Source of the DNA: Moraxellaceae bacterium
GTDB lineage: Bacteria > Pseudomonadota > Gammaproteobacteria > Pseudomonadales > Moraxellaceae
Direction of reading: 5' to 3'
Length of the DNA: 64,000 nt
Assembly (NCBI GenBank): GCA_029237815.1
Contig: JAQZBP010000003.1
Span: 1-64,000, forward strand
Below, one piece after another: positions 7,423-41,839 of this stretch (its first letter is position 1; each line of letters starts with the position of its first letter). A model generated the notes under the pieces. The model was not told where the DNA came from. It did not search any database and saw only the letters and a list, made by a program, of their open reading frames with translations. A program made the position numbers and the translations under genes.

Positions 7423-10176
7423 TCATTCACTTTCGCTGTCGCCAGCGGCACCCGGGGCATCAGACACATCGGGACCGGTTTCGCCTCCCTCCTCGACTGT
7501 TTCCCCGACGTAATCATCGTCACCGCCGACGTCGACCAGGCGAACCAGGCCGACCAGGTGCTCGTCCTCGGCCAACTTGATCAGTGTCACGCCCTGCGTA
7601 TTGCGACCCGACATCGAAACTTCGGCAACGCGGGTACGCACCAGGGTTCCCTGGTCGGAGATCAGCATCAGCTCGTCCTCGTCGGAGACCAGTACCGCTC
7701 CCACCAGTGCGCCATTGCGCTCGGAAGTCTGGATGGCAATCACGCCCTGGCCGCCGCGACCGCGACGCGGGAAGCCCGCCAGCTCAGTGCGCTTGCCGAA
7801 GCCGTTCTCGGACGCCGTCAGGATTTGCGCGCCTGCCTCCGGAATGATCATGGAAATCAGGTGCTGGCCGGCCGGCAGGCGCATGCCGCGCACGCCGCGG
7901 GCATTGCGGCCCATGATGCGTACGTGCTTTTCCTTGAAACGGATGACCTTGCCGCCGTCGGAGAAGAGCATCACCTCGCAGGCACCATTGGTGACGGCTG
8001 CCGCGATAAGCGTGTCGCCCTCCTCCAGGCGCAGTGCGATCAGACCGTTGCTGCGCGGCCGGCTGAACTGCACCAGCGGCGTCTTCTTGACCGTGCCCGA
8101 GGCAGTAGCCATGAAGATATAGGCGCCGGTGGGCTCGTCCTGGGTATCGTCGGCGTCTTCGCTGTCGACACCTTCCTCTTCGACCTCGGGCAGCACGTCG
8201 ACGGCGCTGTCTTCAAGATCTTCGTCTTCCTCCGGCGCCTGCGCGGCCAGGGCGTCGAGATCCACCGGCAACAGCGCTGTGATGCGCTCGCCAGCGGCCA
8301 GCGGCAGGATGTTCACGATGGGCTTGCCCTTGGAACCGCGGCCACCAGAGGGCAGCTCGTAGACTTTGAGCCAGTAGACCTTGCCTGCGCTGGTAAAGCA
8401 CAGCACCGTGTCGTGCGTGCTGGCGACCAGCAACTGCTCGATGTAGTCCTCGTCCTTTACCGCCGTCGCCGACTTGCCGCGACCGCCGCGCCGCTGCGCG
8501 CGGTAATCCGCGAGCGGCTGCGTCTTGGCGTAGCCGGCGTGGGAAATGGTCAGCACCACCTGTTCTTCGGTAATGAGGTCTTCCAGCGTGAGATCCAGTC
8601 GCGACGCAATGATTTCCGTACGGCGGGCATCGCCGTACTGGTCGCGCACCTGCGTCAGTTCCTCACGGATCACCTGCAGCAGCCGCTCCGGATTCGCCAG
8701 AATGAGGCCGAGCTCACGGATGCGTTCCAGGATTTCCTGGTATTCCGCGACGAGCTTGTCCTGCTCGAGGCCGGTAAGACGGTTGAGCCGCAGATCGAGG
8801 ATGGCCTGGGCCTGTTCGGCAGAAAGACGATAGCGCCCCTCCACAAGACCGAACTGCGACGGCAGGCCATCAGGACGACAGGCGTTGGCGTCACCGGCAC
8901 GCTCCAGCATGCCCTGCACGGCGCCCGGCTCCCAGGTGGCGAGCAGCAGGCGATCCTTGGCATCGGACGGGCTCGGCGACGTCTTGATGAGGTCGATGAC
9001 CGGATCGATGTTCGCCAGCGCCACGGCGAGACCTTCCAGGATATGGCCGCGTTCGCGCGCCTTGCGCAACTCGAACACCGTACGCCGCGTCACCACTTCC
9101 CGGCGGTGCCGCACGAAGGCCTCGATCATGTCCTTCAGGTTGAGCAGCTTTGGCTGCCCGTCCACGAGGGCGACCATGTTGATGCCGAACACGCTCTGCA
9201 ACTGCGTCTGTGCAAAGAGGTTGTTGACCACCACTTCGGCAACTTCGCCGCGCTTGATCTCGATGACGATGCGCATGCCATCCTTGTCGGACTCGTCGCG
9301 CAGCTCGGAAATGCCTTCCAGCTTCTTCTCTTTCACCAGCTCGGCGATCTTCTCGATCACGCGTGCCTTGTTCAGCTGGTAGGGAATTTCCGTGAAGATG
9401 ATGGACTGCCGGCCTGTCTTGGCGTCGGTCTCGATATTGTGGCGAGCACGCATGTAGATGCGGCCGCGGCCGGTGCGGTACGCCTCGATGATGCCGGCGC
9501 GGCCATTGATGATGGCGGCGGTCGGGAAATCCGGACCATGGATGTGCTCCATGAGGCCATCGATGGTGATGGTGTCGTCTTCGAGGTAGGCCAGGCAGCC
9601 GTTCACCACTTCCGTGAGATTGTGCGGGGGAATGTTGGTCGCCATGCCAACGGCGATGCCGGCCGAGCCATTGATCAGCAGGTTGGGTACCTTGGTGGGC
9701 ATCACCGCGGGAATCTGCTCGGTGCCATCGTAGTTCGGCACCCAGTCGACGGTTTCCTTGTCGAGGTCCGCGAGCAGCTCGTGGGCCAGGCGCGTCATGC
9801 GCACTTCGGTGTAACGCATGGCCGCAGCGTTGTCGCCATCGACCGAACCGAAGTTGCCTTGCCCGTCCACCAGCATGTAGCGCAGCGAAAAAGGCTGCGC
9901 CATGCGTACGATGGTGTCGTAGACGGCACTGTCGCCGTGTGGGTGGTATTTACCGATAACGTCACCGACCACGCGGGCCGATTTCTTGTAGGCCTTGTTC
10001 CAGTCGTTGCCCAGTTCGTGCATGGCAAAAAGCACGCGCCGGTGCACGGGCTTCAGGCCATCGCGCACGTCCGGGAGGGCGCGGCCCACGATGACGCTCA
10101 TGGCGTAATCGAGGTAAGACTGCTTCAGCTCGTCTTCGATATTGACCGGCAGGATTTCTTTGGCGAATTCGGTCAT
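7423..10176 (-). CDS. gyrA: DNA gyrase subunit A
   Basis: This 917-residue type II topoisomerase subunit breaks and rejoins DNA during negative supercoiling. The catalytic tyrosine is Tyr122 in AMRYTEVR. The quinolone-determining region [10 protein letters not shown] keeps Ser83 and Asp87, the susceptible form. A GyrA box (QRRGGRG) near residue 560 begins the C-terminal pinwheel that wraps DNA. The protein is about 40 residues longer than the E. coli form because of a strongly acidic insert near residues 637-680 ([23 protein letters not shown]) within the pinwheel, and it ends in a second acidic tail. GAGGAT lies a few bases before the ATG. It heads the seven-gene minus-strand series. Confidence 0.97.
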
Positions 10177-33128: not shown

Positions 33129-33157
33129 AAAAAAACGGCGCCGCGGCGCCGTTTTTT
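33129..33157. terminator. Bidirectional terminator between the cysI unit and the Fil-like locus
   Basis: AAAAAAACGGCGCC and GGCGCCGTTTTTT form a GC-rich stem flanked by A- and T-runs, placed between two convergent genes. Confidence 0.9.
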
Positions 33158-33168
33158 ATGCTTGCCGT

Positions 33169-35046
33169 TCAGGGGGCAGGAGGTGAAGCCACGCACTCGC
33201 CACCAGGCGTCGGAACGGAGGAGATATAGCCACCGAGATTGTCGAGGTCATCCTGCGTGCCGGCATCGCTGAAGGCTTTCATGGCCGTGAAACGGTTTCC
33301 CCATACGGCGATGTCGGGAGCAAATGCATTTGTTGTCAGGCACTGGTTGGCTGACTTGCGGTCCGCTGTGCACAGGCCATAACTGCGCAGATTGTTCGCA
33401 CCGCCCACCCGCAACAGCGAGTCTTCACCGAAGCCGCTACCGAACTGCACATAGGGCAGATAGGGAGATATCGCGCGGAAATGCGAGTGGTTGGGAATCA
33501 TGACCAGCAACGTCATCAACTCCATGGTCGCGCTATTTTCATCGCGCAGGTTATCGAGAATGTTCGCCACTACACCCAGCGGAATCTCGGTGCCGCCCGA
33601 CGGGTAGGTCAAGGACACGGGATCAATGTTTTCCCCGCATTTCTGGCTCATGTCGGAAATGATGTTGCCATCACTCAACACGACCATCCTGAACGTCCCG
33701 AGCTCGCAGCCGAATGAGGTACAGCTCGAATCCGAATTCCACAGCGTGACCTTTACGGCAAGCGGGAAATCGATGTTGGTCGTGGTCCACAACGCGGGAT
33801 TGAGGGCTGGCGCCACCGGAACGCTGCGTACCATGGTGATGGAACCGTTCGGGATCAAGGTGCCGGATCCATCCGTCAGGGCCCATTTGCCGAGATCCTC
33901 GGACTTGGGCGTCTCACCGAACAGGGACTCGTAACGGGGGGTCGAGCCGGCAATGGCCTCGCGCGACATCACACCGTTGGTGATGACAGCGCTCCGGCCG
34001 ATGGCAACACCGCTGTCGTTGACCAGCCGGTAAGTGAGGCCGTCCAGGTCGCCATCTATGGGCCATTCGGCAGTAGTAGCGTCGGCCGCCGTCTCGAGCG
34101 ACATTGCCTGGGGTGCGTCGAACAGCACGGTATCGGAAGGCAGCTCGTAAGAGTACACACCGGTCCCTATCATGCGGCCGCGCCGATCCACCAGATTCCA
34201 GAGTGCACCGACGAAGCTCCTACCCCCGCCAACGCCCAGCATGCCGCCGGATGCATTGTTGTCAGCGCGCGCAGTAACGTCATAGGCCTCATAGAGGCCG
34301 GCCTTGGTGCTGTAGACTCCACGGCGCAAGCGGCTCTCCGCCGTGTCATACGCCAATAACGAGAGATCAGGATCGAATGACTGCAGGAAATCCTGAACCG
34401 CCTTGTCGAAGGTGCCGTCGGCGGGTGCGGCCGGATTTGCCACCTCCTGCGGCAGTGTGAACTTGATTTCATCGACCATCTCGGCGGTGAGCTTTCGCTT
34501 TGCAACGTCGCTGATGATCACACGATAGGACGGAAGCTCTGGATCGACGTCATCCGTGCTCAATGTCTGAAGCAGACGCGCCATGTTCACAGCAGCAGCA
34601 CTGCTGGTATTGGCGACAAGCGTGCGCGGTGTCACATAAAAGTAGACCGGAGGCGGATCCTTCTGCGTGGGGCTCTCCGCATAGATCTTGGCAGGCTTGA
34701 CGACCTCGGTTTTGCCAAGCACCAGCTCGATCGACGTATTATCCGGATTGACCAGGGAGAAGGTGACCTCGCTGCCGTTGGGGCAGGAAAAGCCGCCATC
34801 GGAACCCGTTACGGAGCGGACCTTCCCGGCCCCGTCCAGGCCGCATTCGTAATTCACGTTGACGGCGGCATCATCGATGAAGCGGCCCTTCACGCAGGTC
34901 GCGCCCGGGATGCTGGCGCAGGACGTGACCGTGCCAACATCAGAACTGGAAAGGTTGTCGCTCTCGCCACAGGACGCCAGCAGGACGGCAGCCGGAACAA
35001 TGGCAAGGCGACGCAGGATGGCCGGGATTTTCATGTCTTTTTTCAT
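33169..35046 (-). CDS. Large outer-membrane-type lipoprotein of the Fil-like locus (FilF-like)
   Basis: This 625-residue exported protein has a lipobox (LLASC, Cys26) after a basic and hydrophobic N-terminus. The +2 residue is Gly, so sorting to the outer membrane is expected. The mature part is Ser/Asp/Gly-rich and mostly beta by composition, with about a dozen cysteines that could form disulphides (for example CTSFGCELG, YGLCTADRKSANQCL). I know no enzyme motif in it. It is the last gene of the seven-gene series and 4 bases after the preceding one. By order it corresponds to what I recall as FilF in Acinetobacter. Role: possibly a tip, adhesin or assembly lipoprotein (inference). Confidence 0.8.
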   Translation of the reverse strand: MKKDMKIPAILRRLAIVPAAVLLASCGESDNLSSSDVGTVTSCASIPGATCVKGRFIDDAAVNVNYECGLDGAGKVRSVTGSDGGFSCPNGSEVTFSLVNPDNTSIELVLGKTEVVKPAKIYAESPTQKDPPPVYFYVTPRTLVANTSSAAAVNMARLLQTLSTDDVDPELPSYRVIISDVAKRKLTAEMVDEIKFTLPQEVANPAAPADGTFDKAVQDFLQSFDPDLSLLAYDTAESRLRRGVYSTKAGLYEAYDVTARADNNASGGMLGVGGGRSFVGALWNLVDRRGRMIGTGVYSYELPSDTVLFDAPQAMSLETAADATTAEWPIDGDLDGLTYRLVNDSGVAIGRSAVITNGVMSREAIAGSTPRYESLFGETPKSEDLGKWALTDGSGTLIPNGSITMVRSVPVAPALNPALWTTTNIDFPLAVKVTLWNSDSSCTSFGCELGTFRMVVLSDGNIISDMSQKCGENIDPVSLTYPSGGTEIPLGVVANILDNLRDENSATMELMTLLVMIPNHSHFRAISPYLPYVQFGSGFGEDSLLRVGGANNLRSYGLCTADRKSANQCLTTNAFAPDIAVWGNRFTAMKAFSDAGTQDDLDNLGGYISSVPTPGGECVASPPAP

Positions 35047-35050
35047 GACC

Positions 35051-36031
35051 TTATTTCTTGAGGCTGAACATCAATTGGCCAAAGCGGCCCACGCGATAGG
35101 GTGTCGCCGCACTCGCTTCCGGTTGCCCCGAGAGCACCAGTAGAAAACGTTCTTCAACATGGACATCCACCATGCCTTCGAGCATGGGGTGCCGTGAGTT
35201 TGTCTCCGGGTAGGCGCGCTCCGGATACGCGGTCACGACACGCCGGAGACACCCGTCGCGGTCCAGCAGTGCAAGAGCCGGCAGCGGGAATGTCGGTGCG
35301 CGGTCAGAGCTCGAGTACGACTGAACCTGCAGCCGCCGCAGCCCCTGCCCTTCCAGGGAAAACGCATACAGCACTTCCGGCGCCTCGGGAAAGACATAGG
35401 TCTTTTGATCAATCACCAGATCACGCGGCAGGAAACCGATCGACGCAGCCTTCTCCAGGAGCTCCGGCTTCTGGCAACGCTCAAGGCGCGGCCAACGTTG
35501 CTGCGCCGCAGCGGAATCCAGCTCTACCCTGGCGGACACCAGCGGCGTCGACTTCTCTGCCGGCGGCATGGCACCTTCATTCATCAAGCCACCGGGTGTT
35601 GCGCTGCTACCGTCTTCCTCGATATTCCTGACGCCAAGGCCATCGCCTTCGATCACGTAGAAGCGCTTCCTGTCCTTGCCGTCTTTCTTCTGGACCGCGT
35701 CGTCCAGCGCCTCGACGTCGGCATACTCGTCTGAGTCGTAAGGCGCAAAAGCGGGCGAAGGCGTCATCGGCTGCTCATCCTTGGGGGACGGCTCCGCCTT
35801 TTGTGGCAATTTCGCTCCGGTTGGCGGCAGGGGAGCGGAAGAAGAAGCGTTCGACCCTGCGTCCTGCCGCGGAGTCTCGCGCTTGCTACGCTCGGCCTCC
35901 ACATCCCTCTCGCTACGGATGATCGTCACGTTCCCGTTAGGGTCGATGATCGGGTAGAAACTTTCTTCGGCCACCACCGGTGTTGCGGCGGCAAGCAGGA
36001 GGAAAAACAGGGCCCCTCTACGCAACACCAT
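35051..36031 (-). CDS. Exported protein of the Fil-like locus (FilE-like)
   Basis: This 326-residue protein has a signal peptide (MVLRRGALFFLLLAAATPVVA). Just after cleavage comes a short motif ESFYPIIDPNGNVTII, reminiscent of DUF4124-type openings. A charged, Pro/Ser-rich disordered stretch (about 45-110) precedes a C-terminal folded region containing FYVIEGDGLGVRNIEED and a beta-rich end (VHVEERFLLVLSGQPE). It has no lipobox or transmembrane barrel. It is probably periplasmic. It lies 5 bases after the FadL-like gene and 4 bases before the lipoprotein gene, so the three are co-translated. Function unknown. Confidence 0.78.
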   Translation of the reverse strand: MVLRRGALFFLLLAAATPVVAEESFYPIIDPNGNVTIIRSERDVEAERSKRETPRQDAGSNASSSAPLPPTGAKLPQKAEPSPKDEQPMTPSPAFAPYDSDEYADVEALDDAVQKKDGKDRKRFYVIEGDGLGVRNIEEDGSSATPGGLMNEGAMPPAEKSTPLVSARVELDSAAAQQRWPRLERCQKPELLEKAASIGFLPRDLVIDQKTYVFPEAPEVLYAFSLEGQGLRRLQVQSYSSSDRAPTFPLPALALLDRDGCLRRVVTAYPERAYPETNSRHPMLEGMVDVHVEERFLLVLSGQPEASAATPYRVGRFGQLMFSLKK

Positions 36032-36036
36032 CGCGA

Positions 36037-37725
36037 TTACCAGCGCGTGCGGTAGGCAATCCCCAGAATGCCGATGGATGCCTTGGTCTGCACATCGAGG
36101 CCTGCGTAGGGGTTATAGACAACGTTGGTCAAGCCCGTGCAGTTCACTGCGCAGCTGCTGTTCGCCGGAATGCGGTCGCGCGAATAGAGGTAGGCCGCCG
36201 TCAGGTCGATCTCAGTGTCGCGGTCAAACTGGTAACCGATACCCGAGCCGATCAGGATGGCCTCGTTGATCGGCACCAGTGTGGAACGACGATCTTCAGG
36301 GATCGCGCTGTTGCGGGGCTCGAAGCCCAGACGGAACTTCAGTCGCTCGTTCCAGCTGTACTCCATGCCGATCTTGATGCTCCATGGGCTCTGGAAGCCC
36401 AGCGGCATCATCAGCGAGGTGGGCGTCGTGCCAGGCGCCAGCAGGCGGGCAATCTTGAGGACGCTGAGGCTGCGGTCGAAATTGAAGCGGAAGGCATCCC
36501 ACTCCGCATAATCGGTCCAGCCGATGTCGAAGTTCACCTGCATGTCCGGGAGGATCATGTACTTGATGCCGGTCTGGAAGTGTGCCGGATAGGTCAGGTC
36601 CATGGAGATGAGGCCGGTTTCCTTCTCCGGCACATACGCGGGCAGGCCAAGGATGGCGAGGAGGATCTGGCCGGTGGGCGAGCCGCCGACGGAGTTGAAC
36701 ACGTCCTGCACGCCCTGGCTGTAGGACACCTCGAACTTGCCATGCAGGTGCATCTTGGCTTCGCTCTGGTAAACCGCGCCCCAGGCGAAGTCGTCATTGG
36801 GTTCCCAGAGGATGCCCAGGTTATAGGTCGGCGACAGCGTCTGCTGCATTGATACCTTGAGGCTGGCCAGATTGTCATACGGGCCTATGCCCTGCTTCGC
36901 ACCGCAGAAACCGAAAAGGAACAGGTCGACAACGATGTTCTGCTGCCCCTTGAACGGCGGGCAGATCTGTTCGTCGATCACGCGCAGCACGCCGATCAGG
37001 TCGTTGGGTGAGCGGAAATCGGTTTCCAATGCGATGGCCTGATAGGAGAGATTCACCCCAGCGCCAATGGAGAGCGTGTCATTGACCTGATAGGCGACCG
37101 TGGGCGACAGGTAGGTGATACGCTCGATTGCCGTGCGCTCGCCCAGGAAGTTGCCCGGATCATCCGGCTTGCGATAGAAGCCGGCGACCATCGGCGCATA
37201 GAAAGCGTTACCGAAGGTGAACTTGGAACCGGCGGGCTTGATAGAAAAGCCGATCAGAGGCGCCGCGACGGGCAGCCCGGCAGGCAGATCCACCATCTCG
37301 TCCAGAACCGGCAGGTAGAGGGACACACCCTCGACTGCGCTTTTACCGGTCTTGAAGTTGGCGCAGAGACTTTCGCCATCACGCGGCTTGTCTGAACAGA
37401 CCACAGGATCGTCGGAGAAGCCGAAGACCTCGAAACCAGGCGGCGCCGAGAACTGGGACTCGATGTTCATCATTGCCGAGAAGATCTGGAAATCGATATG
37501 GCGCCCTTCCAGCTTGGCAAGGCCAGCCGGATTGTAATGGATGGCGCTCACTCCCGGCGGATCGGCAGTGACGGCGTTACCCATCGAGAGCGCGCGCAAG
37601 TCGATTGACAGGTTCACCGCCAGGTCGGCATGCGCCAACGGCGTCAGCAGCGCGAGCCCCATGCAGACTGCGACAGCAAACCCGGGCAGTGCTTTTCTTC
37701 CTGCGTTATTCATGAGCGATATCAT
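36037..37725 (-). CDS. FadL/OmpP1-family outer-membrane barrel of the Fil-like locus (FilD-like)
   Basis: This 562-residue protein has a signal peptide ending ...LLTPLAHA and a FadL-type N-terminus (RALSMGNAVTADPPGVSAIHYNPAGLAKLEG). The NPAG motif (residues 65-68) is typical of the hydrophobic-substrate transporter family. Alternating amphipathic strands run to a terminal aromatic (YRTRW). At 562 residues it exceeds the usual 400-450, owing to inserts in extracellular loops. FadL proteins move hydrophobic molecules laterally, but in this locus it may serve secretion or anchoring. A start at ATG 37713 is also possible. Confidence 0.85.
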   Translation of the reverse strand: MISLMNNAGRKALPGFAVAVCMGLALLTPLAHADLAVNLSIDLRALSMGNAVTADPPGVSAIHYNPAGLAKLEGRHIDFQIFSAMMNIESQFSAPPGFEVFGFSDDPVVCSDKPRDGESLCANFKTGKSAVEGVSLYLPVLDEMVDLPAGLPVAAPLIGFSIKPAGSKFTFGNAFYAPMVAGFYRKPDDPGNFLGERTAIERITYLSPTVAYQVNDTLSIGAGVNLSYQAIALETDFRSPNDLIGVLRVIDEQICPPFKGQQNIVVDLFLFGFCGAKQGIGPYDNLASLKVSMQQTLSPTYNLGILWEPNDDFAWGAVYQSEAKMHLHGKFEVSYSQGVQDVFNSVGGSPTGQILLAILGLPAYVPEKETGLISMDLTYPAHFQTGIKYMILPDMQVNFDIGWTDYAEWDAFRFNFDRSLSVLKIARLLAPGTTPTSLMMPLGFQSPWSIKIGMEYSWNERLKFRLGFEPRNSAIPEDRRSTLVPINEAILIGSGIGYQFDRDTEIDLTAAYLYSRDRIPANSSCAVNCTGLTNVVYNPYAGLDVQTKASIGILGIAYRTRW

Positions 37726-37737
37726 GCCTGCGGGCGC

Positions 37738-38814
37738 TTATTCGTCAGAGGATCCGAGGAAGTCGATCGGCATGGAGAAGCCGACGACCACATCGGGCGT
37801 GTCTTCCGTCAGCCCGTAGCCGAGGCTCATGTTCACGATGCGCTTGGGATTTGTGCGAAGGCCGAGCGAAAAATTAAGAGAGGCGCTGGTGGACGGCGCC
37901 GTCTTGAAGTACTGGCCATTCTCGAAGTTGTAGGTGGTGGCGAAGGCGTAGGACTGCTGGAAGGACGCCGTGATGGAAACGTCGTAGTTCAGCGAATACG
38001 CAAATCCCATGGAGCCACCGATGCTGTCACCAGGCTCCACCGACTCCAGCAAACGACCGCCGCGATTCTGATCGAGGCCACTCGCCTGCGTCGACATCGT
38101 GTAGCTTCCCGAGGCGAAGAGCACGATCGGGTCGGCAATCTTGCTCACGCTGGCGCCTGCGGAAAGACTGTAATAGCCCTTCCCGGTCGCGATATCGTTG
38201 TTGACGTCGATTTCGTAAGGACTATCGCCGGTGGCAGTAGACAAAGAGGCAAACAGGGTCGACGTGGGCAAGCCGCGCTTGAGCGGCACCGGCTGCCAGC
38301 GCAAGCCAAGGGCAATGTCGCCAAGCCCCGTGGTCTTGAGGTCCTTCTGGGTATCAACCTTGGCCACGAGAGGAATGGATGTCGTAAAAGTCAGGTTGTT
38401 CTTTACGCCGTAAGCCAGTTCGAAATTATTGCCAAACGAATGCTGCGAATCCTGCTCGATACGGAAGCGCGTGATCTGCGAACTGTCGCTGGCCGTCGCC
38501 AAGTCGACACGATAATCGCCATAATAGCTGTAGTCGAAATCATACTGCAGAGAAATTTTTCCGGCCTTCAAAAGCGAGTACGTCTTTTCGCTGGCCTGGA
38601 AAACCTGCTGCAGATTCTTTTCGCTGGTGGCGTCTTCCGCCTGTTGCTTGAGCGCCTCGCGCGCCGAATCTGCTTCCGCAGGAGCAGCCGCCGGCTCCGC
38701 CGCCGGGGCGTCTGCAGCCGGAGTATCGCTGGCGGCGGCTTCTTCTGCCCGCGCCAGACCGGCCTCCATGCCTAGCAGTACAAGGAAAGCTGAAAACAGA
38801 ACCGCTTTTTTCAT
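37738..38814 (-). CDS. Predicted outer-membrane barrel protein of the Fil-like locus (FilC-like)
   Basis: This 358-residue protein begins MKKAVLFSAFLVLLGMEAGLARA. An Ala/Glu/Pro-rich stretch and a short coiled coil (SAREALKQQAEDATSEKNLQQVF) precede a C-terminal part of alternating strands (SLQYDFDYSYYGDY; NNFELAYGVKNNLTFTTSIPL) resembling transporter-type beta barrels. I chose the ATG at 38814, with GGA upstream and a normal signal peptide; the longer frame starts 13 codons earlier without one. The arrangement (periplasmic helix plus barrel) suits a channel or assembly platform. Function is inferred. Confidence 0.78.
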   Translation of the reverse strand: MKKAVLFSAFLVLLGMEAGLARAEEAAASDTPAADAPAAEPAAAPAEADSAREALKQQAEDATSEKNLQQVFQASEKTYSLLKAGKISLQYDFDYSYYGDYRVDLATASDSSQITRFRIEQDSQHSFGNNFELAYGVKNNLTFTTSIPLVAKVDTQKDLKTTGLGDIALGLRWQPVPLKRGLPTSTLFASLSTATGDSPYEIDVNNDIATGKGYYSLSAGASVSKIADPIVLFASGSYTMSTQASGLDQNRGGRLLESVEPGDSIGGSMGFAYSLNYDVSITASFQQSYAFATTYNFENGQYFKTAPSTSASLNFSLGLRTNPKRIVNMSLGYGLTEDTPDVVVGFSMPIDFLGSSDE

Positions 38815-38853
38815 TTTTTGTTTTCCTGTCCACATTCCGGATGGCCGCCACAA

Positions 38854-39687
38854 TCACTTGCGGCGGAAATATCCACGCAGGGGAACGCTAATCGTTTGGT
38901 TGTAGGTATCACTTTCTGCATCGGCATCAATGACCTTGCGCATGGTGCTGGCACGGTCTGCCCTCGCCTCTGCCGAGCGGAGGAATTCGGGAGCCTGGTC
39001 GAACATGGCAAGGTTGACGGTCTGGTCCTCCACGAAACGCATGTCTCCCTCCGTCAGCTCGAGCTGGGAGTGAGGCTTGAAGCCGTTCGGGAAGATGATG
39101 AACATCACGTTGTTTTCCCAGATCTCCTTGAATCGCTCCTCCGGGAAACTGATGTTGCCAAGCGCGGGGTCCGCCACGAAGACTCGACCCTCGCGGTACT
39201 TCTTCAGAACTACGAAATGCTTGAAGCCACCGTAGTGAATGGGAACGATGGCAGGGTGGTCGAGCTTCTTGAGGTCATCGAACGATCCCTTGTAGCCACC
39301 GCTGGGATGGCCGAGCGCTGTCACGAGGCGCTTCATGTCGAGAAGGGAAAAGCCGCGGCGCTGCACGATCTTGTCGTACTCACCGTACTTCAGCAGGCCT
39401 TCCATGATCTGCTTTTCCTGGAACTGGCGGCCCAGGTATCCGTTGAGAAGCGTGGTCAGGGCGGCGGAGCCGCAGCTGTAGTCGTAGGCCTGGTGGACGA
39501 TATTCCTGAACTGCTGCTCGACATGCGGTTTGACCGCAATAGGCCGCTCGCTCACATGCATGCGCGAGTACTGTCGACCATCGACAGGCGTGGAATAATA
39601 AACGGTAGATGGCCCTACTTCCGCTGACTCAAAAGCCGTATCGGCGAAAAAGTAGATCAGGGCTGCTCCAAGAGCGACTGTGAGCAT
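38854..39687 (-). CDS. Exported C39-family cysteine peptidase of the Fil-like locus (FilB-like)
   Basis: This 277-residue protein has an N-terminal hydrophobic anchor (residues 2-17). A papain-like C39 domain follows: oxyanion Gln66, nucleophile Cys72 (DYSCGSAAL), His157 (GGFKHFVVLKK) and Asp173 (VADPALGN). C39 peptidases classically cut double-glycine leader peptides from bacteriocins inside ABC transporters. Here the domain stands alone, with no ATP-binding cassette or transporter domain, and would face the periplasm. About 100 residues follow the domain. Neighbours are two secreted proteins that share a leader-like N-terminal motif, making them plausible substrates. Confidence 0.85.
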   Translation of the reverse strand: MLTVALGAALIYFFADTAFESAEVGPSTVYYSTPVDGRQYSRMHVSERPIAVKPHVEQQFRNIVHQAYDYSCGSAALTTLLNGYLGRQFQEKQIMEGLLKYGEYDKIVQRRGFSLLDMKRLVTALGHPSGGYKGSFDDLKKLDHPAIVPIHYGGFKHFVVLKKYREGRVFVADPALGNISFPEERFKEIWENNVMFIIFPNGFKPHSQLELTEGDMRFVEDQTVNLAMFDQAPEFLRSAEARADRASTMRKVIDADAESDTYNQTISVPLRGYFRRK

Positions 39688-39889
39688 GGCTATCTTTCTT
39701 TTGTTTTGGCCGCGTTATGGTTGTACTTGTACGGCGCTAATTTTTGTAACGACGCAGAACATACACTGAAAATGCGACGCAAGCATCTGTTTTTACGCAA
39801 TTCAAACAAGACAACGCGACAGGCCAAGCCCCTTGGGAATACCCCGCCCGGCTGCCGGAAATGACGACGAAAACGCAGGAATTGCAGGC

Positions 39890-39922
39890 AAAAAAAAGCC
39901 CCCCTTCCGGGGGGCTTTTCTT
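39890..39922 (-). terminator. Terminator between the second FilA-like gene and the peptidase gene
   Basis: GCCCCCC-TTCC-GGGGGGC with a UUCC-type loop is followed on the minus strand by eight T. It lies 13 bases after the FilA-like stop and should limit transcription into the downstream export genes. Confidence 0.88.
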
Positions 39923-39934
39923 CAGAGCGTTAAA

Positions 39935-40774
39935 TCAGTGGCCAGCGATACGGATGGTCGTACCGACCAGGTTCAGGCCCTTGATCTGGACGTCACCCAT
40001 GGACGTGGTGGAACCCAGGCCCACGTCAACCATCGTGACGTCGATACCGGTGGCGGAGCCGAGCGTACCGATAGTGGCAAGCAGACCCGTGCTGGTGGCA
40101 TCGATGTTGATCGCGGTGGTCAGGTTGGTGCCAGCACCGTTGTCGTCAACCGCGATGCTCACGGCATTGAGGGAGCCGCTGCTGTTGGCGTCGTTCAACG
40201 CGAAGTTGGCAATGTTCAGACCGCTGGTCAGCGAGGTGTTGACCATGATCATCGCGCCGCTCAGGGGCTCGGAGCCGAGGTTGATGCTCGCCAGGCTGCC
40301 GGAACCGAACGTGATGGTCATGCTGTTCAGGATGTCGGCGGACTGGTTAGTAAGGGTGTAAGCAGGCGTACCCGAGGTTGCGGCAACCGAGATGTCACCA
40401 GTGGTCAGCACCATGCCGGTCGGCAGGCTCACACCCACCTTCAGGCCGGGCGCGCCGTTCACGCTACCGGAGGCGTCGATATCCAGCACGATGCCGCCGG
40501 TGGCGACGATCCTGAAGGAATCATGGGTACCGGTGGTTGCGGAGTTGTTCGGATCGCCGATCACGACGGCACCGCTGGTGGCCGCGCCGGTGTAGCCGCC
40601 GATGTCATGCCAGATGATATCGGCAGAGATACCGGCACCTGGGGGGGTAATGGTAACCGTCAGACCGTCCTGACCGGTGGTGCTGGCCAGGGCCTCTTCA
40701 TCCATGGCTTCCATGGCGTAAGAGGAAACGGACAGCGCGGCAATGGCGGTCGCGAGGAGGGCTTTCTTCATCAT
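39935..40774 (-). CDS. Secreted FilA-like protein, copy 1
   Basis: This 279-residue protein has a signal peptide (cleavage expected after SSYA, residue 20). The mature N-terminus MEAMDEEALASTTGQDG is followed by a low-complexity, Gly/Ser/Thr/Asn-rich, cysteine-free beta-type sequence. The end is SMGDVQIKGLN...TIRIAGH. It matches the pattern of proteins annotated FilA or DUF6160 in other gammaproteobacteria, as I recall them. A strong GGAGA lies 8 bases before the ATG and a strong terminator follows, as expected for an abundant structural protein. Likely role: surface fibre or coat subunit (inference). Confidence 0.82.
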   Translation of the reverse strand: MMKKALLATAIAALSVSSYAMEAMDEEALASTTGQDGLTVTITPPGAGISADIIWHDIGGYTGAATSGAVVIGDPNNSATTGTHDSFRIVATGGIVLDIDASGSVNGAPGLKVGVSLPTGMVLTTGDISVAATSGTPAYTLTNQSADILNSMTITFGSGSLASINLGSEPLSGAMIMVNTSLTSGLNIANFALNDANSSGSLNAVSIAVDDNGAGTNLTTAINIDATSTGLLATIGTLGSATGIDVTMVDVGLGSTTSMGDVQIKGLNLVGTTIRIAGH

Positions 40775-40938
40775 TTTTGTTCTCCGTTATTTTCCAAGGG
40801 CGCAGCGCCTTGATTTTTTATCTTGGCAACTTACGCACTGTAACAATCGAAACCGCAAAAAGCCAACAGACAAAAGACTGGTCCTTCAGGATTCCGACGA
40901 AGTGGAAGCAACTATCCCTAAGTGGTAGGCCATCAAGC

Positions 40939-40972
40939 AATCGGGCCCTGCCTTGACGGCAGAGCCCGATTC
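40939..40972 (-). terminator. Long hairpin after FilA-like copy 2
   Basis: AATCGGGC...GCCCGATT with inner CTGCC/GGCAG pairing and one mismatch gives a stem of about 13 bp. No T-run follows, so it is more likely a partial terminator or an RNA-stabilising end between the two filA-like genes. Confidence 0.5.
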
Positions 40973-41011
40973 CACTCCAGATGACGGGATGTCGACTGGA
41001 GTGAGTTCGCT

Positions 41012-41839
41012 TTAGGGATGCGCGGCGATGGTGATGGTGTTGTTGGCAACGTTGAGGCCCATCAGGTAGACGTCACCCATCGAGCCGGTGCCACCCAGGG
41101 TCACAGTCTCCATGCCAACGTTCACATTGGTCAGGCCCGAGCCGGTGTTGATCACCAGACCACCCGCCGCCACGTTCACAGAGGCATTGGTCAGGGTCAG
41201 GTTTTCCAGCGTCAGGGTGCCAATGCCAATCGCGTCTCCAGCAGTAGCATCGACGATCTGCATGCCCGTCAGGGACACGGTGCCGAGGCTGCCGTTCAGG
41301 GTCATGAAGTTGTCGTCTTCGCTACCAAGGTCGATGTCCAGCAGGCGGCCAGAGGCGCCCGCGATGACCATCTGGGAGCCAGTGGCAAAGCGGATCACAT
41401 CGCGAGCAGTGCCGGTCGTGGAGCGCGCGGCCAGCGTTGCGCCAGAAGCGGTGTTCTGTGCGTCAGCCACTTGAATGGAGCTGCCAGACAGATTGATCGT
41501 AATGCCATTGGGGTTGGTAACACCGATGTTCAGCATACCTCGGGTACCAGCGCCGGTACCGGCATTGCCGCCAGCATCGATATCGATGATCAGTCCGTTG
41601 GAGGCGATGCCCACGTTGTTGATCAGTACGCCACCGGCATTGCCATAGCCAGACGCGCCAGTACCAGTACGGTCAATCCACTTGATGCTGGTGGTGACGT
41701 TGGTGTTGAGGGTAACGGTCAGACCATCCTGACCGGTGGTGGCAGACAGACTTTCGTCATCCATGGCCTGCATGGCCATTGCGCTGGAAGAGGCGGCGAG
41801 GATGGCGGAAGTGAGAATGAGCTTCTTGAACCCGTTCAT
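41012..41839 (-). CDS. Secreted FilA-like protein, copy 2
   Basis: This 275-residue paralogue has a signal peptide (cleavage expected after SAMA, residue 22). The mature start MQAMDDESLSATTGQDG is almost identical to copy 1, while the central part has diverged. The end is SMGDVYLMGLN...TITIAAHP, again matching copy 1. Composition is Gly/Thr/Asn-rich and cysteine-free, typical of extracellular beta-solenoid or fibre proteins. AGGAGA precedes the ATG. It is the first gene of the locus, opposite pabB. Confidence 0.82.
   Translation of the reverse strand: MNGFKKLILTSAILAASSSAMAMQAMDDESLSATTGQDGLTVTLNTNVTTSIKWIDRTGTGASGYGNAGGVLINNVGIASNGLIIDIDAGGNAGTGAGTRGMLNIGVTNPNGITINLSGSSIQVADAQNTASGATLAARSTTGTARDVIRFATGSQMVIAGASGRLLDIDLGSEDDNFMTLNGSLGTVSLTGMQIVDATAGDAIGIGTLTLENLTLTNASVNVAAGGLVINTGSGLTNVNVGMETVTLGGTGSMGDVYLMGLNVANNTITIAAHP

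Follow-up and report, generated by a model that had tools for sequence, protein, structure and literature searches.

In a Moraxellaceae bacterium (assembly GCA_029237815.1), we analysed 64,000 nucleotides of the contig JAQZBP010000003.1 (positions 1 to 64,000; hereafter, the window). The locus studied here lies at positions 33169–41839 and consists of seven open reading frames, all on the minus strand, in the order filA-filA-filB-filC-filD-filE-filF. The first-pass annotation of this DNA had described seven exported-protein genes on one strand with the layout of the fil putative pilus system and with gaps of 0–40 bases among the last five genes. Translation verified the genes and their coordinates. 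The intergenic distances in gene order are 237, 247, 0, 12, 5 and 4 bases. The FilC frame was listed from a TTG codon, but translation more likely begins at an ATG located 13 codons further in. If this internal ATG is used, the FilB–FilC gap is 39 bases; the five genes filB–filF are otherwise 0–12 bases apart. The NCBIfam models name all seven genes in locus order: FilA (3e-34), FilA (9e-55), FilB (2e-116), FilC (3e-121), FilD (3e-259), FilE (5e-19) and FilF (1e-14). All seven scores fall under the strict curated ('exception'-level) cut-offs of NCBI for the fil models, so the locus is a relative of these narrowly set families and does not lie inside them. Pfam recognizes DUF6160 twice, Peptidase_C39, FadL/TodX and FilE_C. 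Judged by its gene content and order, the locus is a fil system.

The first two genes encode predicted precursors of exported fibre subunits, FilA1 (41012–41839, 275 amino acids (aa); DUF6160 6.9e-14) and FilA2 (39935–40774, 279 aa; DUF6160 4.6e-9). Both carry a motif similar to the leaders of C39 peptidase substrates: MDDESLSATTGQ at residues 26–37 of FilA1 (41729–41764) and MDEEALASTTGQ at residues 24–35 of FilA2 (40670–40705), the latter placed by motif alignment and a motif scan. Between filA2 and filB, pattern matching found a terminator-like hairpin with a T run (39900–39914, minus strand). By the same kind of pattern match, a terminator-like site is present in 22 of 42 scanned filA–filB gaps, including that of the window, and the hairpin could raise the amount of subunit mRNA above that of machinery mRNA. 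FilB (38854–39687, 277 aa) is a predicted exported C39 cysteine peptidase (Peptidase_C39 3e-19) with the catalytic triad Cys72 (39472–39474), His157 (39217–39219) and Asp173 (39169–39171). FilC (37738–38853, up to 371 aa) is a putative outer-membrane export channel. FilD (36037–37725, 562 aa) is a barrel of the FadL/OmpP1 type and a strong FadL relative (Toluene_X 4e-65). The locus has outer-membrane barrels of its own, FilC and FilD, as the annotation had proposed. FilE (35051–36031, 326 aa) is exported and carries the FilE C-terminal domain (FilE_C 7e-10). FilF (33169–35046, 625 aa) is a lipoprotein with the lipobox LLASC and Cys26. Directly past filF, a hairpin pattern scan found a strong terminator-like hairpin with a 12-pair stem and a T run (33130–33157, minus strand), which ends the locus.

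FilB and FilC connect the locus with a known export machinery. FilB matches the NCBIfam FapD model (9e-35), and FilC matches the FapF model (5e-17). In a PDB search, FilC finds the solved FapF structures 5o65, 5o67 and 5o68 (E ~5e-9), and FilB matches 6mpz (E 1.9e-6), a C39 peptidase of the ATP-binding cassette (ABC) transporter type. Cys72, His157 and Asp173 are unchanged in 81/81 aligned FilB/FapD-type peptidases. By these sequence comparisons, FilB and FilC are homologous to the periplasmic C39 peptidase FapD and the outer-membrane channel FapF of Pseudomonas amyloid export, and the view that the machinery has no relatives had to be dropped. It has been shown that the active-site cysteine of FapD is required for secretion of the amyloid subunit FapC; the target of FapD was left open, and FapE and FapF were discussed as candidates (PMC5557850).

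The likeness to the Fap system (FapA-F) extends to FapE proteins, in which a leader-like motif, mostly [LIV]xxxx[LM]xx[LMI]RG[RK], shares the register of the FilA motif. At the same time, in contrast to Fap, the locus lacks FapB/FapC-like subunits, has DUF6160 subunits instead, and adds FilD, FilE and FilF. Pfam and NCBIfam gave no match to FapB, FapC or FapE among the seven locus proteins. Since the FapB/FapC amyloid subunits with Gln/Asn-rich repeats are not among the genes of the locus, we rejected its membership in the Fap system. A complete fap operon, FapA-F, was found in a genome of the same genus (G013; L066, 7745–12838), ~100 kilobases from the fil locus of that genome. Segments similar to C39 leaders are present in the FapE (VRDAELALLRGR) and the FapA (LSDSDFASVSSG) of this operon. 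FapD/FapF-like loci also form a third group, which lacks recognized FapB/FapC (L085, L088, L092, L093, L095, L098 and L099). They encode a short exported protein whose leader-like segment ends with a true GG (or RGQ), for example VDATELNSIRGG and LDDEMLDTLRGG, and several have very long Ser/Asn/Asp-rich proteins nearby. This group is possibly an undescribed fibre system. In two Moraxellaceae without fil (L068, 4851–6429; L069, 5629–7269), the gene of another exported C39 peptidase adjoins that of an exported protein of 315 residues. Close to this pair, L068 also encodes a small exported protein that is rich in Gly/Ala/Trp and contains MTDKQMEETQGA (9022–9387).

To compare the subunits, we used an alignment of 36 FilA from Moraxellaceae, Alcanivorax and Pseudomonas. 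Behind an evident signal peptide, these proteins contain the segment M/L-D/E-D/E-x-x-L/M-x-x-T/V/S-T-G-Q, which ends 34–38 residues from the protein start. TGQ is invariant (36/36) and is followed by the conserved D(T/A)-G-I/L. Double-glycine leaders, which are cut by the C39 domains of ABC transporters, have the form LSxxELxxIxGG. When Q is taken as −1, all FilA examined have hydrophobic residues at −12 and −7, Thr/Val/Ser at −4 and Gly at −2, and this spacing is that of double-glycine leaders. Positions −12, −7 and −2 fit the rule for such leaders; at −4, where the rule has a hydrophobic residue, FilA have Thr/Val/Ser, and −1 is Gln, not Gly/Ala/Ser. FilB and FilA share the peptidase family and the leader spacing with C39 ABC transporters, whereas FilB is stand-alone and exported, and the locus has no ABC transporter. 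With a stand-alone exported peptidase, cutting would occur in the periplasm, after Sec. The proposed mature N-terminus of FilA1 is D38. In the AlphaFold model of FilA2 (predicted local distance difference test (pLDDT) 74.5), a low-confidence helix spans the signal and the leader, and everything thereafter is beta. Only FilA1 and FilA2 carry the leader motif in the window locus, according to the motif scan. At the DNA level, the TGQ segment was searched for with an overly strict pattern, which matched unrelated sites only. Pseudomonas FilA are ~150 residues long, and BLAST overlooked FilA in some loci where it is present.

The FilA subunits also have a relative among solved filaments. PDB entry 9XFV, 'Pilus-like-alpha', is a cryo-electron microscopy filament from a Guilin karst cave, released on 2026-02-18 and deposited as a 25-chain pilus-like assembly; our literature search found no paper on this entry or on filaments from karst caves. 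When the FilA of Pseudomonas and Alcanivorax were combined into a profile, it matched 9XFV with E 1.4e-8. In this alignment, profile position 39, the residue directly past TGQ, corresponds to chain residue 1, and the C-termini are matched to the last residue. Using phmmer, a Pseudomonas-type FilA matched 9XFV with E 6e-7, and a broader profile led by FilA2 of the window gave E 0.0012. The 9XFV chain is shorter than the window subunits (173 aa vs ~240). Foldseek with the FilA2 model ranked 9XFV first (probability 1.00, E 0.087), and the superposition of the FilA model on 9XFV gave 2.3 Å over 95 residues with 23% identity and Z 4.9. However, in a structure comparison of the FilA model with the PDB, several unrelated barrels scored above 9XFV (Z 6–7). 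By itself, the structural similarity is therefore weak evidence, and the claim is carried by the sequence profile. On the profile alignment, FilA is homologous to 9XFV over the whole mature chain. The chain of 9XFV is numbered 38–210, so that 37 residues are absent, and FilA1 has exactly 37 residues through TGQ. This agreement is most simply explained by cleavage of the fibre subunit behind TGQ. The 9XFV C-terminus was not found in 369 Gammaproteobacteria, in a search that had no positive control.

We also assessed the conservation of the locus. A genome scan with FilB gave 41 loci. The closest FilB are from other metagenome-assembled Moraxellaceae genomes (74–80% identity), followed by those of Alcanivorax, Acinetobacter and Pseudomonas (~51–63%), and these relatives place the window in the Moraxellaceae. 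A. baylyi is among the species with the locus (L016). The order FilA-FilB-FilC-FilD is kept in nearly all loci not interrupted by contig ends, including those of Alcanivorax and Pseudomonas. This means that the arrangement is not due to chance, and the comparison of gene order with Acinetobacter that the annotation had suggested gave a conserved order, with the families co-located in other genomes. FilE is kept at the locus in Moraxellaceae, and FilF homologues are found directly past FilE in Acinetobacter and at the same place in Alcanivorax. In Alcanivorax and Pseudomonas (L008, L032, L033 and L036), inspection by eye showed genes for a GntR-type regulator and methylisocitrate lyase- and methylcitrate synthase-like proteins nearby, downstream; this shared downstream neighbourhood of fil-type genes spans families.

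Among 61 Moraxellaceae genomes, FilC is present in 32, FilB in 34 (two of them weak) and DUF6160 in 34. Nearly all complete genomes have either all three or none of them, despite variable presence inside one genus. The exceptions are G047 (82% complete), with FilB and FilC and no DUF6160 match; G027 (86%), with FilC, located at a contig end, and DUF6160 and no FilB match; and G031 (which has FilB), G037 and G041, with DUF6160 and no FilC match (88, 95 and 74% complete; ~300 contigs each). Class-wide, DUF6160 occurs in 6 of 369 Gammaproteobacteria, and these are exactly the six, from four families, that have Fil-type FilB and FilC (FilC E ≤ 2e-58, the next match being 9.5e-25; FilB E ≤ 1.4e-62, the next being 1e-39). 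In G197 and G310, the FilB–FilC pair has no recognized FilA or FilD adjoining it (in G310, the pair is at a contig end), and each genome has 13 scattered DUF6160 proteins. This suggests that the peptidase-channel pair is the core of the system and the subunits are free to move. The genome of the window, examined by family searches, contains two more clusters of exported proteins with the same leader-like segment, for example LSETELASVTGQ and LTDESLGSVTGE (C9:430883–433080, L057; C2:119685–123202, L058). They include members of ~700–740 residues, and similar large members recur in other fil-bearing Moraxellaceae. The proteins of these clusters are probably extra FilB/FilC substrates.

Fibres formed by FilA have been described in Acinetobacter. 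The long curved fibres of Acinetobacter sp. Tol 5 are abundant on triacylglycerol and were concluded to be 'Fil fimbriae'; Edman degradation established the identity of the FilA band (PMC3498257). On the basis of mass spectrometry, the curved filaments of A. genomospecies 16 were attributed to FilA (PMC10980823). Together with electron microscopy, these data tie the curved fibres to FilA and make the surface fibre expected in the first-pass annotation very probable; the coat secretion mentioned there as an option found no support. The window locus has the same genes in the same order as the Acinetobacter fil locus, and differs from it by its two filA copies, by the model scores below the cut-offs and by strongly diverged FilE and FilF. 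Chaperone-usher pili and type IV pili were considered and rejected, as Pfam and NCBIfam revealed no PapD-like chaperone, usher, type IV pilin, prepilin peptidase or assembly ATPase among the seven proteins. The annotation had correctly reported the lack of a chaperone/usher, type IV prepilin machinery and ATPase; its statement that there is no pilin was wrong, because the FilA proteins are pilin-like subunits.

The identity of FilF to its homologues is mostly 16–26% outside the nearest relative, and Cys26 is invariant in 27 homologues. The AlphaFold model (pLDDT 75.6, predicted template modelling score 0.81) gave no convincing whole-chain structural match, and the sequence gave no match in the PDB. 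Residues ~245–410 resemble small beta-barrels (avidin, HpuA and TbpB) with a middling Z of up to 8.3, and this likeness may reflect a common arrangement only. In A. baumannii, FilF is a lipoprotein whose release by type II secretion depends on GspD and GspN (PMC12802150). A GspN-family gene is present in the genome of the window, and FilF of the window is probably a surface lipoprotein. Since A. baumannii FilF is not released without type II secretion and GspN, the locus is probably not fully self-contained, contrary to the first impression. It has also been shown that FilC and FilF increase in A. baumannii biofilm (PMC8792954).

Taken together, these data suggest, with a probability of roughly 0.7, that the product of the locus is a Fil pilus, a non-amyloid surface fibre of folded subunits made by an export machinery of the FapD/FapF type. 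FilA1 and FilA2, which have evident signal peptides, would cross the inner membrane via Sec. Periplasmic FilB would then recognize the leader remaining after signal-peptide removal by a hydrophobic residue at −12, Asp at −11, Leu at −7, Thr/Val at −4, Gly at −2 and Gln at −1, and its cut after TGQ would free the conserved DG[IL]x[IV] N-terminus. The subunit would leave through FilC, a homologue of the FapF channel, fold outside and polymerise into a long curved filament like 9XFV. As the locus has no ATPase, polymerisation probably supplies the direction and the driving force. The lipoprotein FilF would reach the surface via type II secretion, as its A. baumannii counterpart does, and may, with FilD and FilE, anchor, cap or tip the fibre. 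The same FilB/FilC pair probably also handles the DUF6160 proteins scattered over the genome.

Several points weigh against this scheme. The FilA leader terminates in GQ instead of GG, and none of the NCBIfam bacteriocin-leader models matched it. FilA2 of the window has no phmmer match to 9XFV on its own, the connection being made via the shorter Pseudomonas-type FilA, and the first 37 residues of 9XFV could be unresolved or omitted by the depositors. The cleavage of FilA by FilB, the order of steps and the roles of FilD, FilE and FilF are inferred, and the transport role of FilC is deduced from its homology to FapF. Exported open reading frames with the motif near a peptidase numbered 52 in Fil loci, 11 in Fap and 8 in other loci (~1.1, 0.3 and 0.15 in shuffles), and this count is descriptive, as the regular expression was composed after the sequences were seen and the counted loci are related.

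It is unlikely, for the same leader segment, that FilB acts on another component (FilC or FilE) and that TGQ belongs to an uncleaved recognition or secretion signal. FapE and FapF are the candidates discussed for FapD, whose target is unproven (PMC5557850), and the conservation of FilA runs beyond TGQ into DGIxI, more than in many cleaved leaders. However, 9XFV lacks everything through TGQ, the motif in the window locus is confined to the two FilA, and DUF6160 proteins track FilB and FilC across genomes. The homology of FilB and FilC to FapD and FapF and the comparable gene logic (exported subunits, a C39 peptidase and a channel) would also agree with a functional amyloid of the Fap type, with FilA leaving the cell unfolded and assembling into cross-beta fibrils at the cell surface. 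We consider this quite improbable, since FapB, FapC and FapE have no matches in the locus, FilA shows no obvious repeats rich in Gln/Asn, the entry of its homologue 9XFV is a pilus-like assembly, the FilA fibres of Acinetobacter have been described as pili that are long and curved, and in the same-genus genome mentioned above a true fap operon exists separately from the fil locus (L066, L067).

The strong relationship of FilD to FadL, the abundance of Tol 5 fibres on triacylglycerol and the presence of the locus in Alcanivorax and Acinetobacter suggest one more explanation, a system mainly for uptake or surface lipids built around FilD, with FilA as an accessory matrix protein holding hydrophobic substrates. 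The FilB–FilC pairs without adjoining FilD in the DUF6160-rich G197 and G310 suggest that the core is the peptidase-channel pair and not FilD, and such a lipid role seems very improbable. Returning to the folded-subunit pilus, we give even odds to a wider proposal: Fil pili are a separate class, in which a stand-alone C39 peptidase removes a double-glycine-type leader in the periplasm and thereby licenses the polymerisation of folded subunits exported via a FapF-type channel; 9XFV would belong to this class, and the leader motif would point to the missing FapD substrates (FapE, perhaps FapA) and scattered others.

The locus belongs to a named system that has been mechanistically unexplained so far. 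Three loose ends meet in it: the Acinetobacter Fil pili, which have no known assembly route, FapD, which has no known target (PMC5557850), and the orphan filament 9XFV. FilF is a studied A. baumannii vaccine antigen (PMC4751259), which makes it useful to know its parent system. If the model holds, the leader motif would be a means to predict exported proteins that use the FilB/FilC-type route.

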